36,453 nt of DNA from Deltaproteobacteria bacterium (lineage in GTDB: Bacteria; Desulfobacterota; Syntrophorhabdia; Syntrophorhabdales; Syntrophorhabdaceae). Each line of letters opens with the position of its first letter. The first letter of the stretch is position 1. Position numbers and translations under genes: made by a program. Location: contig JAKPCK010000045.1 of assembly GCA_029553295.1 (NCBI GenBank), positions 1-36,453 on the forward strand, written 5' to 3'. The notes beneath the pieces are model-generated. The model saw nothing but the letters and a program-made list of their open reading frames with translations. It searched no databases and was not told the DNA's origin. Of this stretch, positions 17,513-32,042 are shown one piece after another.

Positions 17513-17815
17513 ATGCAAAGGGTATACATATATGCAACAAGACAGGAGGTCAGATATAGAGGTACTCGTTCGACCCTGATATTTATATTATCCTTTCTTT
17601 GCATTGCCCTTTTTTATTTTATCGTCAGGGGGGCATGCATTAACTTGAGGGAGGACCTGATTGCCCAGCTCTCCAGAGAAAGACACGCCCTTGAGACAAA
17701 TAGCAGGCTAAAGATAGAGTTATCAGGGATTACCAAGAAGAGGTATCTTGAATTTAAGGCAAAGGAGCTCGGGCTTAAAAAGCCAAAGGAAGAGGAGGTT
17801 TTGGTATTGAGATGA
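17513..17815 (+). CDS. ftsL: FtsL-like divisome protein
   Basis: At 100 aa, it has a basic N-terminal tail, one TM helix (about 22-42, LIFILSFLCIALFYFIV) and a periplasmic coiled-coil-like helix (LREDLIAQLSRERHALET). It ends with FKAKELGLKKPKEEEV, like the FtsL/DivIC ending in which a short helix precedes a beta strand. FtsL is poorly conserved, so size, topology and the slot after rsmH carry the call. FtsL joins FtsB and FtsQ to activate septal wall synthesis. The start follows a G-rich ribosome site, and the end overlaps the next gene as ATGA. Confidence 0.75.
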   Translation: MQRVYIYATRQEVRYRGTRSTLIFILSFLCIALFYFIVRGACINLREDLIAQLSRERHALETNSRLKIELSGITKKRYLEFKAKELGLKKPKEEEVLVLR

Positions 17816-18702
17816 ATAAAAAGGCTAAAAGAAAGGCCTTCTTCATCTGTCTCACCATATGCCTTTTATATATATCATTAGCAGCGAATATTACAGAGCG
17901 AATAAAAATGACAAGGGTATCGGAAGCAATAGGCAATACAAAGACAGGTATGTCTGTATCTTTACCGGTGGCACAGGTAAAAAAGCAACAAGAGATTGCG
18001 AAGGAATCAATAGATAACAAGATAAAAGTGCCTGAACCAGAGAAATCAGAGAACGCCCCTGTTATTAAAAGTGACGATGACCATATAGAACCCATGTTTT
18101 TCATATCTGTCCCTATTGTCTGCTATTCCATTAAAAAAAGGATAATAGACAGGGATACACTTATCCCATCCTCAAACAACACATGGAAAAAACCCATTCA
18201 GATTTTAGAAGACAGGGATATGGAGGGTCTAAAAAATCTATCGAGGTTGATAGGTAGAAAGGATATATCAGATTTTCTAAAGAGAGAGGGTATAGAGCAC
18301 AGGGATGATATAACAGCCGAGAGCCTCTTAACAGGCAGGGGTTATGTAATCAACAAGGCAAGGTTCAGCGCCATATATGAGATGCACGTGGGGGAAGGAT
18401 ATGATACACTCTTCCCCATAATATTCAACGGTATGGCTATAAAAAGAACTGATAAGGGTTTTGAGCTCGTCCGCTCAAAGACACCAATACCTGAGAACAA
18501 AAAAGAGATAAGGACAGAAAAAGAGTGGATAATGCCAGATTTGACCAATGCCTCCATGAGGAAGGCCATTGAGATGCTAAATATTAATACAAGGAAGATC
18601 AGGATAATAGGCATGGGTACTGTATATGACCAGTATCCAAAACCCCATGAGAGGATAAAGGGTGAGGCAGAGTGTATACTATACGGAAGGGTGAATAACT
18701 GA
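17812..18702 (+). CDS. TM + PASTA protein in the ftsI slot; no transpeptidase domain
   Basis: Between ftsL and murE one expects FtsI, about 550-650 aa. This gene encodes 296 aa: a TM helix (8-26), a polar linker rich in Lys, Glu and Ser (30-95), an unrecognised middle region (about 125-235, with SRLIGRKDISDFLKREGI and YEMHVGEGYD) and a C-terminal PASTA-like domain (about 240-294: MPDLTNASMRKAIEML ... YDQYPKP). The ordered SxxK, SxN and KTG motifs of penicillin-binding proteins are missing; a lone KTG near residue 44 is in the linker. PASTA domains bind wall fragments and occur at the end of some FtsI proteins. It may be a scaffold, a sensor, or a relic of FtsI. It abuts ftsL by ATGA overlap and murE by 3 nt. 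Confidence 0.7.
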   Translation: MNKKAKRKAFFICLTICLLYISLAANITERIKMTRVSEAIGNTKTGMSVSLPVAQVKKQQEIAKESIDNKIKVPEPEKSENAPVIKSDDDHIEPMFFISVPIVCYSIKKRIIDRDTLIPSSNNTWKKPIQILEDRDMEGLKNLSRLIGRKDISDFLKREGIEHRDDITAESLLTGRGYVINKARFSAIYEMHVGEGYDTLFPIIFNGMAIKRTDKGFELVRSKTPIPENKKEIRTEKEWIMPDLTNASMRKAIEMLNINTRKIRIIGMGTVYDQYPKPHERIKGEAECILYGRVNN

Positions 18703-22586: not shown

Positions 22587-23912
22587 ATGGAGATACCTGA
22601 TAGGATACTCATAGTCGGGCTTGGTAAGACAGGGGTTTCGGTGGCGAGATTTCTGGGTGGGCAGGGCAAGGCCATCACCGTAACAGATACTAAAACTGAG
22701 GCAGAGCTCTCCCATGCCATAGCTGAACTAAAAGGTGTGGAATTTAAAGGCAGATTCGGCGGTCACAATATGGATGACTTCATAAACCAAGACATGATAG
22801 TTGTGAGCCCGGGTGTGGATATAGAGATGCCATACATAAAAGAGGCTGTAAAAAGGGGTATCAGGGTAATAGGGGAGATAGAACTTGCCTCAGCATTTGT
22901 GGACAGCCCCATTATAGCCATTACAGGGACAAACGGCAAGACTACTGTTACATCCCTTATGGGAGAGATCTTCCAGGCTGCCTTCGAATACGTCTTTGTG
23001 GGAGGCAATATAGGCAATCCCCTTGTAAATTATGTCATGGATGATAAAAAAGCCGATTATGTCATACTCGAGATAAGTAGCTTTCAGCTTGAGACAATTC
23101 ATAGATTCCACCCCCATATATCCGTCCTCCTTAATATCACAGAAGACCATCTGGACAGGTACAGAAGTTTCGATGAATACAGGGATGCCAAGCTCAGGAT
23201 ATTTGAAAATCAATCCGGAGATGATTTTGCCATCCTGAATAAGAATATAGAGCTAAATAGACCCATCAAGGCAAAAAAACTATATTTCTCTGCATACGAT
23301 GTTGTAGAAGAGGGTGCATATTACAGGGACAATAAGATGTATATAAGGTTTAATGGCAAGGAATATACCTACAGAAGAGATATAAGCCCCCTTCCAGGGA
23401 CACACAATACAGAGAATCTCCTCGTTGTACTTCTTGCTGCTCATATAGCCGGGATAGAAAGAGGTGTCATAGAAGAGGTGCTCAAGGGTTTCATGGGCCT
23501 CCCCCATAGGGTTGAATATGTAAGGGAGATAAACGGGGTGAGATTTATCAATGACTCCAAGGCAACAAATGTAGATGCCACAAAGAGGGCATTACAGGGT
23601 ATAAATGACAATATCGTGCTTATAGCCGGTGGAAAGGATAAAGGCGGTAGTTACAGGGTTATGATGGATGAGTTAAAAAAGGTAAAGGCACTCATTCTTA
23701 TTGGAGAGGCAAGAAAGAGGATTATTGGAGAACTTGCCGGGCATGTGGTCATATATGAGGCAGCGGATCTGGATGATGCTGTGAAAAGAGCAATGGATGT
23801 GGCAAAAAAAGGAGATACTGTGCTTTTTTCCCCTATGTGCAGTAGCTTTGATATGTTCAGGGATTATAAGGAGAGGGGAGAGATATTCAAGAAGATCGTG
23901 TGGGCTATATGA
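22587..23912 (+). CDS. murD: UDP-MurNAc-L-Ala:D-Glu ligase MurD
   Basis: Adds D-glutamate to UDP-MurNAc-L-Ala. At 441 aa it has a Rossmann-like start (RILIVGLGKTGVSVARFL), SPGVD, the P-loop ITGTNGKTT (112-120), ILEISSFQLET, NITEDHLDRY, FINDSKATNVDAT and FSPMCSSFDMFRDYKERG at the end, all standard for MurD. Its stop overlaps the next start as ATGA. Confidence 0.97.
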   Translation: MEIPDRILIVGLGKTGVSVARFLGGQGKAITVTDTKTEAELSHAIAELKGVEFKGRFGGHNMDDFINQDMIVVSPGVDIEMPYIKEAVKRGIRVIGEIELASAFVDSPIIAITGTNGKTTVTSLMGEIFQAAFEYVFVGGNIGNPLVNYVMDDKKADYVILEISSFQLETIHRFHPHISVLLNITEDHLDRYRSFDEYRDAKLRIFENQSGDDFAILNKNIELNRPIKAKKLYFSAYDVVEEGAYYRDNKMYIRFNGKEYTYRRDISPLPGTHNTENLLVVLLAAHIAGIERGVIEEVLKGFMGLPHRVEYVREINGVRFINDSKATNVDATKRALQGINDNIVLIAGGKDKGGSYRVMMDELKKVKALILIGEARKRIIGELAGHVVIYEAADLDDAVKRAMDVAKKGDTVLFSPMCSSFDMFRDYKERGEIFKKIVWAI

Positions 23913-24697
23913 AAAAGGCTGCTATCTTACTCCTCACATCCCTACTCTTATACGGTATGGTCAGGGAGTTGAACTCTATAAAGATTGCCTTGATATGTGT
24001 TGGTCTGATAGGGTCATACATTGTCTGTCGTATACCCGGTAGATACATAATGTCCATGAAATACCCCTTGATTGTCATACAACTTGCCATAACAGCCCTA
24101 TTCCTTGTATTTCCCCATCTGTCCATCAAGGAGCATGGTGATTTCTTTGTTGCCTTTATGGCCATCTACAGCATTATGTTTTATCTCATCTCCATTAAAG
24201 AGGGTCAAAAGGGGCTCTTTAAAGAGGTGGTTGCCATATCAATCCTTTATTTTTCTGCATTTTTTAATCTCCTCATGGTAGGCAAGCCTGTGCTTATCAT
24301 CTCCATTGCCCTGCCCGTGATGCTCTATCTATTCATAATAGGGCACAACAAGGTTATCCTTTTTATCCTGGGATATACGCTCTTTATTGTTTTGGCTCTT
24401 ATAATGAGAAAGGTGTCCATAATCGGTGCAGGTATAAACTTCAGTAGTGATTTGCATAGATACATACTCCTTTTATCGCCCCTTTTTCTTTTGATATGGA
24501 GTTTTATCGGCCTTGTGAAAAAGACAGATTTTTTAAAGATAATCTCTTTTTTGGGCCTGATGTGTATCTCCATAGATATACTTATGGTGGTGGGCCTAAG
24601 GCTCTCCTGCGGCATAGTATATCAGCCTCTGGCAGCTATCCTGATTGTAGCCCCCATTGCCGGTATGATGATGAAGGCAGAGAAGGGAGGCTTATGA
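23909..24697 (+). CDS. About 10-TM membrane protein in the ftsW slot; not recognisably SEDS
   Basis: FtsW normally lies between murD and murG. This 262-aa protein (ATG 23909 overlapping the murD stop; a GTG at 23900 is possible) has 9-10 hydrophobic helices, the first at about 2-17 and the last near the C-terminus, joined by short loops. That helix number equals SEDS proteins, but FtsW is about 360-400 aa with a long periplasmic loop and conserved catalytic Asp. I find no SEDS motifs such as GGLFG, HTDFI or GEELG. It could be a shrunken, very divergent SEDS member, a lipid II handling protein, or something new. It also overlaps murG as ATGA, so it is locked into the operon. Confidence 0.7.
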   Translation: MKKAAILLLTSLLLYGMVRELNSIKIALICVGLIGSYIVCRIPGRYIMSMKYPLIVIQLAITALFLVFPHLSIKEHGDFFVAFMAIYSIMFYLISIKEGQKGLFKEVVAISILYFSAFFNLLMVGKPVLIISIALPVMLYLFIIGHNKVILFILGYTLFIVLALIMRKVSIIGAGINFSSDLHRYILLLSPLFLLIWSFIGLVKKTDFLKIISFLGLMCISIDILMVVGLRLSCGIVYQPLAAILIVAPIAGMMMKAEKGGL

Positions 24698-28037: not shown

Positions 28038-28931
28038 ATGAGGGATAAGAGAATTGGTGTCTTGATGGGTGGTATGTCATCGGAGAGGGAGATATCCCTG
28101 AAGAGCGGAAGGGCTGTCCTTGAGAGTCTTTTAAGGCAGGGCTATAATGCTGTAGGTATAGATGTGGACAGGGGCCTCATGGAGACCCTTAAAAAAGAAT
28201 CCATAGATATAGCCTTTATTGCCCTCCACGGCAGGTGGGGTGAAGATGGGACAGTCCAGGGCCTCCTTGAGACGGTGGGTATCCCCTATACAGGTTCAGG
28301 GGTATTAGGTTCTGCTGCTGCCCTGGATAAGGCAGCTATGAAGTATATCCTTAAAGGCGCCGGGGTCCCGACACCTGACTATAGGGTATACTATAAGAAA
28401 GATGCAATCCGATTCCCCATCCCTTTTGTAATCAAGCCAGCAAACGAGGGTTCTACCATAGGCATATCCATAGTGAGGGATAAGAAAGAGATAGAGGAAG
28501 CCTGTCAATGTGCATTCAGATACGACAAAAAGGTCCTGGTAGAGAGGTTCATAGAAGGTAGGGAGATAACTGTAGGTAAGATTGATGACATATCACTCCC
28601 CATAGTTGAGGTAAGACCAAAAAAAGGTTTTTATGACTTTGAGTCAAAATATACAGTAGGTATGACAGAATACATTGTCCCGGCAAAGCTCAACAAGACT
28701 ATTGAGAAAAGGGCATACAAGATAGCAGATGAGGTCTACAGGCTCTTTGAATTGTCTGGCTGTGCAAGGATAGATATGCTTATAGATGATGGCATCCCAA
28801 ATGTAATAGATATAAATACATCACCGGGCATGACAGAGACATCCCTTGTCCCAAAGGCATGGGGGTGTCTTGGAAAGGGCTTTGATGAGCTTATAGAGAA
28901 GATACTATCAGGGGCATCGTTGAAGATATGA
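28038..28931 (+). CDS. ddl: D-alanine-D-alanine ligase
   Basis: Makes the D-Ala-D-Ala used by MurF. It is a 297-aa ATP-grasp enzyme with VLMGGMSSEREISLKSG at the start, ALHGRWGEDGTVQGLLE, PYTGSGVLGSAAALDK, PFVIKPANEGSTIGIS and the metal/ATP end DINTSPGMTETSLVPKA. It belongs to the short DdlB-like group common in dcw clusters. GTATAAGGA is a modest ribosome site. ftsQ overlaps its stop as ATGA. Confidence 0.96.
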   Translation: MRDKRIGVLMGGMSSEREISLKSGRAVLESLLRQGYNAVGIDVDRGLMETLKKESIDIAFIALHGRWGEDGTVQGLLETVGIPYTGSGVLGSAAALDKAAMKYILKGAGVPTPDYRVYYKKDAIRFPIPFVIKPANEGSTIGISIVRDKKEIEEACQCAFRYDKKVLVERFIEGREITVGKIDDISLPIVEVRPKKGFYDFESKYTVGMTEYIVPAKLNKTIEKRAYKIADEVYRLFELSGCARIDMLIDDGIPNVIDINTSPGMTETSLVPKAWGCLGKGFDELIEKILSGASLKI

Positions 28932-29623
28932 AAAAAATACTCTATATACTTTTTATAACACCTATTTGTCTATTATCTATACTGACCCTTGTCTATCTGT
29001 TTTCCAGCGATGTCCCCATGTTTATAATAAAAAACATCAAGATTGTCGGTGTAAAACAGTTGAAGGACGCAGATGTTATGGGCAGAATATCACCTTATAT
29101 TAAAGACGGTGTATTGGATGCGCAAAAGATAAGGGAGGCAGTGCTTTCCCACCCCTTTGTATCTGATGTGAGGATAAAAAGGGTATACCCCTTCTCTGTG
29201 GTGATAGATATAAAGGAAAAGAGGCTTGCCGGATTATGGGTAGATAGTTCAGGGAATGTAATGATACTGGATGAACATGGAGAGCCATATAGGGGACTCT
29301 CTACAGGTGCAGCAAAAGATATGTTTATCATAAACACAAAGGATAGAAACAGCTTAAAAGACATATTGAAGGAGATAAACACCTGGATATCTGAAGGGCT
29401 TATAAAGAAAGAGGACATATCAGAGGTAGCCTTTAGAGACGGCAGCATAACCATCTTCCTTGTTCAGGAAGGTATAGAGATAGTCCTGGGAAAGGAAGAT
29501 CTGAAAAAGAGGCTGAAGAGGGCGATGGTTGTCCTGGAGGACGCAAAAAAGAGAGGTCTCCTGATTAAATGTATAGACGCCAGGTTTGAGAGGGGTGCCA
29601 TTATTCAGGAAAGGCAGGTGTAA
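28928..29623 (+). CDS. ftsQ: Cell division protein FtsQ
   Basis: At 231 aa, it has a short cytoplasmic tail, one TM helix (about 4-26), a POTRA domain (about 33-102: FIIKNIKIVGVKQLKDADVM ... HPFVSDVRIKRVYP) and a beta-rich domain (GLWVDSSGNVMILDEHGEPY). FtsQ holds FtsL and FtsB and links the early ring to the septal synthase. Its presence implies a classic divisome even though the ftsI and ftsW slots are odd. ftsA starts 2 nt after the stop. Confidence 0.9.
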   Translation: MKKILYILFITPICLLSILTLVYLFSSDVPMFIIKNIKIVGVKQLKDADVMGRISPYIKDGVLDAQKIREAVLSHPFVSDVRIKRVYPFSVVIDIKEKRLAGLWVDSSGNVMILDEHGEPYRGLSTGAAKDMFIINTKDRNSLKDILKEINTWISEGLIKKEDISEVAFRDGSITIFLVQEGIEIVLGKEDLKKRLKRAMVVLEDAKKRGLLIKCIDARFERGAIIQERQV

Positions 29624-29624
29624 T

Positions 29625-30869
29625 ATGGTAAGGGACGATGAAATGCTTGTAGGTCTTGACATTGGGACAACAAAGATATGTGTGGTTGTGGCAAAGGTGG
29701 CTGAGGGCAAGGTCAATATAGTGGGTATAGGTTCCCATCCATCCACAGGATTGAGAAAGGGCGTTGTCGTGAATATGGACAGCACTGTCAGTTCCATTAA
29801 AAAGGCTGTGGAAGAGGCAGAGCTGATGGCGGGCATAAAGATTGACAGTTGCATTGCCGGTATCTCTGGTGCCCATGTGAAGAGCTTTAACAGTAACGGG
29901 GTTGTGGCTGTAAAGGATAAAGAGGTCAGGGCTGATGATGTGGCAAGGGCTATAGATGCAGCCAAGGCAGTGGCCATACCCGCTGACAGGCAGGTCCTCC
30001 ATGTTATACCACAGGAGTTTATAATAGATGACCAGGACGGTATAAAAGACCCCATAGGGATTACAGGGGTGAGGCTTGAGGTTAAGGTGCATATAGTCAC
30101 AGGCAGTGTAGCCTCTGCCCAGAATATTATAAAGTGCTGCAGGCTTGCCGGATTAAATGTGGATGACATAGTGCTCAGCCAGATTGCATCTGCTGAGGCA
30201 ACGCTTTCACCAGAAGAGAAGGAGATCGGCGCAGCACTCATCGATATGGGGGGTGGGACAAGCGATATAGCTGTATTTGCCAATGGCAGCATAAAATATA
30301 CGGCTGTTTTGCCTTTTGGTGGCAACAACATAACAAACGATATAGCCATAGGCCTTAAGACCCCTCTTGAAGAGGCAGAGAAGATAAAAAAGAAGTTCGG
30401 CAGCGCCTTTTCAAGCATGATAGGGGAGAATGAGACCATAGAGGTCCCCAGCGTGGGCGGCAGAAAGCCCAGAACCTTAAAGAGAAAGACCCTTGCCGAT
30501 ATCATAGAGCCCAGGGTAGAAGAGATATGCACCATGTTGTACGAGGAGATTAAAAAATCAGGGGCAGAGAAGCTCTTGGCATCAGGGGTTATACTTACAG
30601 GGGGATGCGCAAACCTTGAGGGGATTGTGGAGCTTTCAGAAAATATATTCAATCTCCAGACGAGGATAGGATTTCCAACAGGTGTAGGGGGGCTCGTGGA
30701 TGTGGTGAATAACCCCATATATGCCACCGGGGTTGGGCTGTTGATATGTGGTTATAAGAATCCAGGGGTAAAGAAGTCTAAGTTTGAGAAGGGCAGGGCA
30801 ATAAAAAAGATATACACAGGCCCAAATATCCTGAAAAGGATGAAGGAATGGTTTAAAGAAATCTTTTAA
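29625..30869 (+). CDS. ftsA: Cell division protein FtsA
   Basis: An actin-fold ATPase that ties FtsZ to the membrane. At 414 aa it has MLVGLDIGTTKICVVVAKV (phosphate 1), GISGAHVKSFNSNG in the 1C domain, ALIDMGGGTSDIAVF (phosphate 2), VILTGGCANLEGI, and a C-terminal amphipathic helix (NILKRMKEWFKEIF), the membrane anchor. The frame is open to 29586 inside ftsQ; ATG 29625, just after the ftsQ stop and behind AGGCAGG, is the better start. ftsZ follows after 12 nt. Confidence 0.96.
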   Translation: MVRDDEMLVGLDIGTTKICVVVAKVAEGKVNIVGIGSHPSTGLRKGVVVNMDSTVSSIKKAVEEAELMAGIKIDSCIAGISGAHVKSFNSNGVVAVKDKEVRADDVARAIDAAKAVAIPADRQVLHVIPQEFIIDDQDGIKDPIGITGVRLEVKVHIVTGSVASAQNIIKCCRLAGLNVDDIVLSQIASAEATLSPEEKEIGAALIDMGGGTSDIAVFANGSIKYTAVLPFGGNNITNDIAIGLKTPLEEAEKIKKKFGSAFSSMIGENETIEVPSVGGRKPRTLKRKTLADIIEPRVEEICTMLYEEIKKSGAEKLLASGVILTGGCANLEGIVELSENIFNLQTRIGFPTGVGGLVDVVNNPIYATGVGLLICGYKNPGVKKSKFEKGRAIKKIYTGPNILKRMKEWFKEIF

Positions 30870-30881
30870 GGAGGTAAGAGG

Positions 30882-32042
30882 ATGCCAAACACATTTTATA
30901 TGGATGAAAGCGGTGGTTTTTCAGCAAAGTTAAAGGTAGTCGGTGTTGGTGGAGGTGGGTGTAATGCCTTGAATAACATGGTGGATGCCAATGTGAGAGG
31001 CGTTGAGTTTATAGCTGTCAATACTGACCTTAAGTCTCTGAATATGTGTAAGGCACCCATTAAGATACAGATAGGGAATAAACTGACAAGTGGTCTCGGG
31101 GCAGGCGCTGACCCTGAGGTGGGCAAAAAGGCCGCCCTTGAGGATGTGGAGAAGATCAAGGAACACCTGAAAGGTGCACATATGGTATTTATCACCTGTG
31201 GCCTTGGTGGAGGCACAGGGACAGGGGCATCACCTGTTATAGCAGAGATATCAAAGGAGCTTGGCTCCCTTACCGTTGCCATTGCCACAAAACCTTTTGC
31301 CTTTGAAGGAAAAGACAGGATGAGACAGGCAGAACAAGGTGTTGCCCAACTCAAGACAAGGGTGGATTCCTTAATCACCATTCCAAATCAGAGGCTGTTT
31401 TCCATAGGCGGTAAACACATGACCATTATAGAGGCATTCTTAAAGGCAGATGAGGTGCTTTTGAACGCTGTCCAGAGTATATCAGACCTTATAATAGGGT
31501 CAGGCCATGTGGTTGTGGATTTTGCAGATGTAAAGACAATAATGAGCGAGAGGGGTATGGCAATAATGGGCATTGGAGTTGCAACCGGGGAGAACAGGGC
31601 AAGGGAGGCAGCACAGAAGGCTATATCGAGCCCGCTTCTCGAGGATATATCCATTCACGGTGCAAGGGGTGTCCTTATAAATGTTACTGGAGATACCAAT
31701 ATGACCCTCCATGAGGTAAATGAGGCATCAACCCTTATACAGGAACAGGCCCATGAGGATGCAAAGATAATATGGGGTCTTGTGTATGACGATACAATGG
31801 ATGGTGCCATGAGGATCACAGTCATAGCCACAGGTTTTGAGGAGAAGGCTATTGTAGACGAAGAACCTATAATAAAGCCTGTAAAACATACGGGCAGGCT
31901 TTTTCGAGACCTTGATGAGCCGCCCTTTATAAGAAAAAACATAACCATAGATTATAAGGAGATTAAATCAAAGAGCGATAACCTTGATATAGATGATGAG
32001 AGATACGATGTGCCGACTTTCTTAAGAAAGCAGGCAGACTAA
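30882..32042 (+). CDS. ftsZ: Cell division GTPase FtsZ
   Basis: The tubulin homologue that forms the Z ring. At 386 aa it has KVVGVGGGGCNALNNMV, the tubulin signature GLGGGTGTGASPVIAE, TIPNQRL, DFADVKTIM (T7 loop region, with the catalytic Asp) and the C-terminal peptide DVPTFLRKQ that binds FtsA. TAAGGAGGT precedes the ATG. Last gene of the cluster; the next gene is convergent. Confidence 0.98.
   Translation: MPNTFYMDESGGFSAKLKVVGVGGGGCNALNNMVDANVRGVEFIAVNTDLKSLNMCKAPIKIQIGNKLTSGLGAGADPEVGKKAALEDVEKIKEHLKGAHMVFITCGLGGGTGTGASPVIAEISKELGSLTVAIATKPFAFEGKDRMRQAEQGVAQLKTRVDSLITIPNQRLFSIGGKHMTIIEAFLKADEVLLNAVQSISDLIIGSGHVVVDFADVKTIMSERGMAIMGIGVATGENRAREAAQKAISSPLLEDISIHGARGVLINVTGDTNMTLHEVNEASTLIQEQAHEDAKIIWGLVYDDTMDGAMRITVIATGFEEKAIVDEEPIIKPVKHTGRLFRDLDEPPFIRKNITIDYKEIKSKSDNLDIDDERYDVPTFLRKQAD

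Follow-up and report, generated by a model that had tools for sequence, protein, structure and literature searches.

The pair formed by FtsW, a glycosyltransferase of the SEDS (shape, elongation, division and sporulation) family, and FtsI, a class B penicillin-binding protein (PBP), is said to be regarded as universally essential for building the septal wall (PMC10693644). The closest described systems depart from this scheme in different ways. Clostridioides difficile divides vegetatively without a canonical FtsW/FtsI: its septal wall is built by a class A PBP, and its elongation pair of the RodA-PBP2 type is limited to elongation (PMC10693644). In Bacillus subtilis, a catalytically dead PBP2B supports division, revealing a structural role independent of catalysis (PMC5656894), and for the Desulfobulbaceae/cable bacteria absence of ftsW from the genome has already been reported in a paper that counts FtsI as present and active (PMC7873302). 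Here we analyse the division and cell wall (dcw) cluster of a member of the Syntrophorhabdaceae (Desulfobacterota), which is contained in a stretch of 36,453 nucleotides (assembly GCA_029553295.1, contig JAKPCK010000045.1, positions 1 to 36,453), referred to as the window. In this cluster, the ftsI slot and the ftsW slot appear to be occupied by reduced, non-catalytic versions of the two enzymes, hereafter pseudo-FtsI and pseudo-FtsW.

The locus resembles each of these precedents in part. As in C. difficile, other synthases would have to build the septum, but in that species the pair encoded in the dcw cluster is intact and has been put to use in sporulation, whereas the Syntrophorhabdales pair appears inactive and no sporulation is involved. 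The likeness to B. subtilis PBP2B lies in a division class B PBP whose role is structural; that protein is, however, a point mutant made in the laboratory, with PBP3 as its backup, in contrast to the naturally fixed and reduced form found here. Desulfobulbaceae FtsI was taken as active (PMC7873302), whereas we found its catalytic motifs missing, and Syntrophorhabdales additionally keep a pseudo-SEDS. Among open-licence papers, none was found that reports inactive FtsI in these groups, the condition of the Syntrophorhabdales or any pseudo-SEDS.

The occupant of the ftsI slot

An earlier note, based on the letters of the window and without database searches, had placed a 296-aa protein with a transmembrane (TM) segment and a PASTA domain, without transpeptidase, in the ftsI slot, and the open reading frame (ORF), its position and the PASTA domain were all confirmed. 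The ORF (17812-18702, plus strand, as are all features of the window given below) begins with ATG, lies exactly in the ftsI slot, overlaps the upstream ftsL-like ORF by 4 bases and is followed by murE after 3 bases. AlphaFold predicts an N-terminal membrane helix at residues 3-31 (17818-17904) and a disordered linker, followed by a core and a PASTA domain that are mostly modelled at a pLDDT (predicted local distance difference test) above 85. The PASTA domain (PF03793; residues 241-283, 18532-18660) exceeded the Pfam cut-off only barely (23.5 versus 23.2 bits, E 5e-5) and was the sole Pfam domain matched in the protein; among 28 homologues, 23 matched PASTA and none matched a transpeptidase model.

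Profile comparison gave the middle part of the protein, which the earlier note had listed as an unknown domain, an identity. When the pseudo-FtsI profile was aligned by hhalign with active FtsI from other Desulfobacterota, positions 88-201 alone were matched with 96.2% probability (E 2.7e-9), and with more FtsI sequences the match rose to 96.9% (E 1.7e-10) and covered core and PASTA in a single collinear alignment, in which residues 88-296 correspond to columns 316-681 of the 685-column FtsI profile. As controls, a reversed alignment yielded E 0.15 and the top score of 60 column-shuffled alignments was 30, compared with 85.6 for the real one. In the aligned core (residues 88-201, 18073-18414), 'IEPMFFIS' stands over the 'EPGSTFK' segment of active FtsI, 'DMEGLKNLSRLIGRKDISDFLKREGI' over the 'SSNIGA..' helix and 'LLTGRGYVINKARFSAIYE' over the 'FGQGVSVTGMQL' segment; SxxK and SxN are replaced, and neither the KTG part nor the pedestal is present. 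All 32 Syntrophorhabdales members that we examined have lost SxxK, SxN and KTG at the corresponding alignment positions. We considered the 'SSN' found at residues 120-122 of the window's pseudo-FtsI as a surviving SxN and rejected it, since it is out of alignment register and absent in most relatives.

The predicted structure points in the same direction. Foldseek matched the model to PBP2x, PBP3 and class D beta-lactamases in the PDB, with template modelling (TM) scores that are modest (0.2-0.34) given that a large part of the fold has been lost and the linker is disordered. These fold and profile matches go to the transpeptidase domain and not to the PBP pedestal, for which residues 125-235 had been proposed, and the intact transpeptidase that could have overturned the original reading was not seen in the model, which contains a shrunken core devoid of the three motifs. 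The suggestion that the PASTA end is a remnant of FtsI was borne out as far as descent is concerned and fell short in that a shortened transpeptidase core survives as well. Pseudo-FtsI therefore shares with FtsI (a class B PBP of the PBP3/PBP2x type) the dcw slot between ftsL and murE, the N-terminal TM segment, a core of transpeptidase fold, the C-terminal PASTA domain and the collinear profile match, and differs from it by the absence of the pedestal, of all three motifs and of about half of the transpeptidase domain. Taken together, sequence profile, predicted fold and synteny provide good support for the view that 17812-18702 is the lineage's ftsI, reduced to a pseudoenzyme.

The occupant of the ftsW slot and the neighbouring genes

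The earlier note had described a nearly complete dcw cluster that lacks FtsI only. That description holds for the remainder of the cluster, except that ftsW is also lacking, a point that had been overlooked along with the taxonomic breadth of the condition. The ftsW slot, between murD and murG, is filled by a multi-TM protein of 262 aa when read from the ATG at 23909 (23909-24697; the GTG ORF from 23900 encodes 265 aa). Neither this protein nor any of 26 homologues matched the Pfam SEDS model FTSW_RODA_SPOVE. Its AlphaFold model (pLDDT 87.8, predicted TM score 0.84) nevertheless retrieved FtsW of the FtsWIQLB complex (8p1u) and two RodA structures as the top three PDB matches, each with a probability of 1.00, followed by WaaL (0.89) and then mostly by receptors and other membrane proteins at low probability. 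In hhalign, the pseudo-FtsW profile matched FtsW with E 7.5e-4 and RodA with 0.19, compared with 0.09 for reversed FtsW and 0.11 for MraY, which had been run as a control and leaves homology of the protein to MraY unsupported. Helices 147-166 and 181-204 of the model are joined by about 15 residues, a link that may mark the former site of the large catalytic loop in periplasmic position, which in SEDS enzymes carries a conserved Asp, and the HTDF-type motif, present in every intact SEDS protein scanned, was not seen in the pseudo-FtsW family alignment. Pseudo-FtsW has the murD/murG slot and a predicted SEDS-like fold in common with FtsW, its profile being nearer to FtsW than to RodA at an hhalign probability of 25%, and it differs from FtsW in being about 100 residues shorter and in having no HTDF-type loop and no SEDS Pfam match. 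Sequence profile, predicted fold and synteny support the interpretation of 23909-24697 as the ftsW partner of pseudo-FtsI, likewise reduced to a pseudoenzyme.

The remaining genes of the cluster follow the order mraZ, rsmH, ftsL-like, pseudo-FtsI gene, murE, murF, mraY, murD, pseudo-FtsW gene, murG, murC, murB, ddl, ftsQ, ftsA and ftsZ, so that FtsL, FtsQ, FtsA and FtsZ are still present alongside the two stubs. The FtsL-like protein (17513-17815; TM segment and short coiled coil), encoded directly upstream of pseudo-FtsI, was assigned from position and conservation, and weak DivIC matches fall on this slot in several relatives. FtsQ (28928-29623) carries POTRA and FtsQ/DivIB C-terminal domains according to Pfam, and FtsA (29586-30869) and FtsZ (30882-32042) were assigned from sequence and synteny. 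FtsB is kept in 58 of 60 genomes, a count that includes outgroups.

Breadth, selection and a second clade

We compared 44 genomes of the order Syntrophorhabdales from three families and 19 genera, including the window's own genome, all of them multi-contig drafts. Pseudo-FtsI was found in every one of them, and outside the order we obtained just two weak matches, both in the PASTA region; pseudo-FtsW likewise occurs in 44/44 genomes within the order and in 0/16 outside. Synteny around both stubs is the same in the relatives' dcw regions compared. Presence in all 44 genomes, with the same neighbours in the dcw regions compared, also rules out chance and an assembly error at 17812-18702, the latter of which the earlier note had named as a possible source of its observation. 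Close pairs gave ratios of nonsynonymous to synonymous substitution rates (dN/dS) of 0.10-0.23 for pseudo-FtsI and 0.08-0.20 for pseudo-FtsW, values like those of rsmH and murE; a further pair, with 0.286 for the FtsI stub, was set aside as it involves a chimeric, N-filled ORF in locus L119. Apart from a few frame breaks in single drafts (for example G014), the frames are intact across the three families. Both stubs are under purifying selection and are not dead genes.

A comparable loss was found in a second clade of Desulfobacterota. Its class of 116 genomes appears to be Desulfobulbia, including Desulfurivibrio alkaliphilus AHT2 (G065, a closed genome), and would comprise the Desulfobulbaceae. 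There, 113 of the 116 genomes have one SEDS match, two have none and G057 has its one gene broken into two frames; two PBP_dimer proteins are present in nearly all. In the dcw clusters that could be read as far as murG, murD directly abuts murG and ftsW is absent, and the protein in the ftsI slot, of about 600-700 aa, retains the pedestal and usually PASTA but is missing all three motifs; Pfam returned just partial or weak transpeptidase remnants for four such proteins. Families f31, f39, f40, f61, f67, f72, f73, f84 and f88 likewise lack ftsW and carry an inactive protein of 320-643 aa in the ftsI slot; f39 and f72 are probably Thermodesulfobacterium and Thermodesulfatator. Across all 69 loss loci, none had the three motifs at the right place, whereas the intact FtsI proteins encoded at 11 loci in other lineages all have them (a twelfth, L125, is split over two frames). 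SxxK- or KTG-like pattern matches in some second-clade proteins were dismissed because they are located in the PASTA domain or in linkers.

In a tree of five dcw proteins, Syntrophorhabdales grouped with lineages whose FtsI is active, the second clade branching in another part, and a single common origin of all losses was mildly disfavoured (approximately unbiased test, p 0.024). Two losses are therefore likely, and FtsI/FtsW catalysis has probably been lost twice, independently, in Desulfobacterota. The outcomes are likely to differ as well, in that Syntrophorhabdales kept a pseudo-SEDS and trimmed FtsI most, whereas the second clade deleted ftsW.

Some further features were recorded in these comparisons. 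The only SEDS gene of the single-contig genome G057 (C1:137697-138757) is split over two adjacent frames, by a true break or a sequencing error. In Desulfobulbia L126 and most of L174-L193, murE and murF are fused, in most members as a single ORF of about 1000-1070 aa. Loci L222, L228, L235 and L236 (families f32, f91 and f36) belong to Desulfobacterota with a single SEDS protein that retain dcw ftsW together with FtsI bearing all motifs; since the single SEDS protein is the dcw ftsW in these cases, RodA seems to be the missing one.

Remaining wall synthases and the proposed divisome

The window's own genome (157 contigs, 96.8% complete) encodes only four transpeptidase-domain proteins, namely MrdA/PBP2, two PBP1a-type and one PbpC-type class A PBP. 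MrdA/PBP2 is its sole class B PBP and RodA its sole SEDS protein; both are encoded in a mreB-mreC-mreD-mrdA-rodA operon, and no FtsI or FtsW enzyme was found elsewhere in this genome. Throughout the order, each of the 44 genomes has exactly one PBP_dimer (PF03717) protein, which is MrdA, and 41 have a single SEDS protein, compared with mostly two of each in other genomes of the phylum. In a tree, the core SEDS proteins of sampled order members and of the second clade fall in the RodA clade, separated from dcw FtsW by a branch with 100% support, and core RodA and MrdA retain their motifs. Proteins of the GT51 family (class A PBPs and monofunctional enzymes) mostly number 3-4 per genome in the order versus 1-3 in outgroups.

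Two exceptions to the single SEDS protein belong to genus g11 (Syntrophorhabdaceae), where an accessory SEDS protein adjoins a class B PBP that has kept SxxK and KTG, and a Ser/Thr kinase gene lies next to the pair (L237:3292-6479 and L238:234-3415); the L238 locus also contains a PP2C phosphatase and an FHA protein, and such a pair was seen only in the two g11 genomes. One Syntrophorhabdales draft has a short extra SEDS C-terminal fragment (G039:C54:57784-58059).

Since the FtsI and FtsW stubs are apparently non-catalytic, the septum must come from other wall-building enzymes. The best explanation, which we hold to be likely, is that the two slots are filled by selected pseudoenzymes that act as a non-catalytic scaffold, with the septum made by class A PBPs and/or RodA-PBP2. 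While the identity of the stubs is well supported, the mechanism is our proposal: they most likely form a membrane scaffold with FtsQ-FtsL-FtsB and FtsA/FtsZ, which would mark the division site and relay the start signal for wall synthesis, and the remaining synthases would be recruited or activated by this non-catalytic core. Of the earlier note's idea of an enzyme encoded elsewhere and a new scaffold in the slot, the scaffold stands as the best inference, whereas no FtsI-type enzyme turned up in the 44 genomes, the additional class B PBP of g11 being kinase-linked. Several observations weigh against this explanation. Foldseek E-values of the three top pseudo-FtsW matches are 6e-3 to 0.14, and the hhalign probability to FtsW is just 25%, a moderate signal that leaves the identity of this protein more dependent on predicted fold and position than on sequence. 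In family f3, some genomes have one or two GT51 proteins, which is why class A PBPs are favoured as septal synthases no more than slightly.

A one-enzyme version of the same explanation, in which RodA-PBP2 serves both elongation and septation and is redirected to midcell through binding by the stubs, is a serious possibility that we rate somewhat below even. No core SEDS-class B pair other than RodA and MrdA remains, their motifs are kept, and just one GT51 protein is encoded in genome G038 (97% complete); on the other hand, the pair is encoded in the mreBCD operon, as in dedicated elongasomes, and in C. difficile this pair works in elongation only, septum synthesis being the task of a class A PBP (PMC10693644). 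Replacement of ftsI and ftsW by a TM-PASTA gene and a membrane protein that are unrelated to them and have another role in division would agree with the Pfam results, PASTA alone in one protein and nothing in the other, but it is improbable given that the core matches the FtsI transpeptidase domain by profile and fold, that the membrane protein matches the FtsW/RodA fold, each in its own slot, and that the second clade shows graded intermediates of inactive FtsI. Loss of motifs and entire domains could also be expected of functionless relics in decay, a reading that the dN/dS values and intact frames described above render highly implausible. Equally slight is the chance that active FtsI and FtsW were overlooked elsewhere: all searched genomes of the order are multi-contig drafts, yet misses would be required in all 44, the search caught even the divergent accessory SEDS in g11, and the parallel clade includes closed genomes such as that of D. 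alkaliphilus AHT2.

With a little more reserve than for the pseudoenzyme scaffold as such, we consider it fairly probable that these bacteria have an FtsZ-based divisome in which the SEDS and class B PBP pair is wholly pseudoenzymatic and serves as a signalling scaffold, septal synthesis having been handed to class A or elongation-type synthases, and that catalysis was lost at least twice in Desulfobacterota. If true, FtsWI catalysis would be dispensable while the scaffold is kept, and what appears to be a pseudo-SEDS would be added, a kind of protein for which we found no report. The two clades would then represent a large natural experiment in which FtsWI catalysis is gone and selection has retained stubs of both proteins, or of FtsI alone; the second clade has cultured members, for example Desulfurivibrio alkaliphilus. 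The structural role of FtsW-FtsI would be separated from the catalytic one, and which synthase can build a septum becomes testable. Beta-lactams that act via FtsI are predicted to have no such target in these bacteria.
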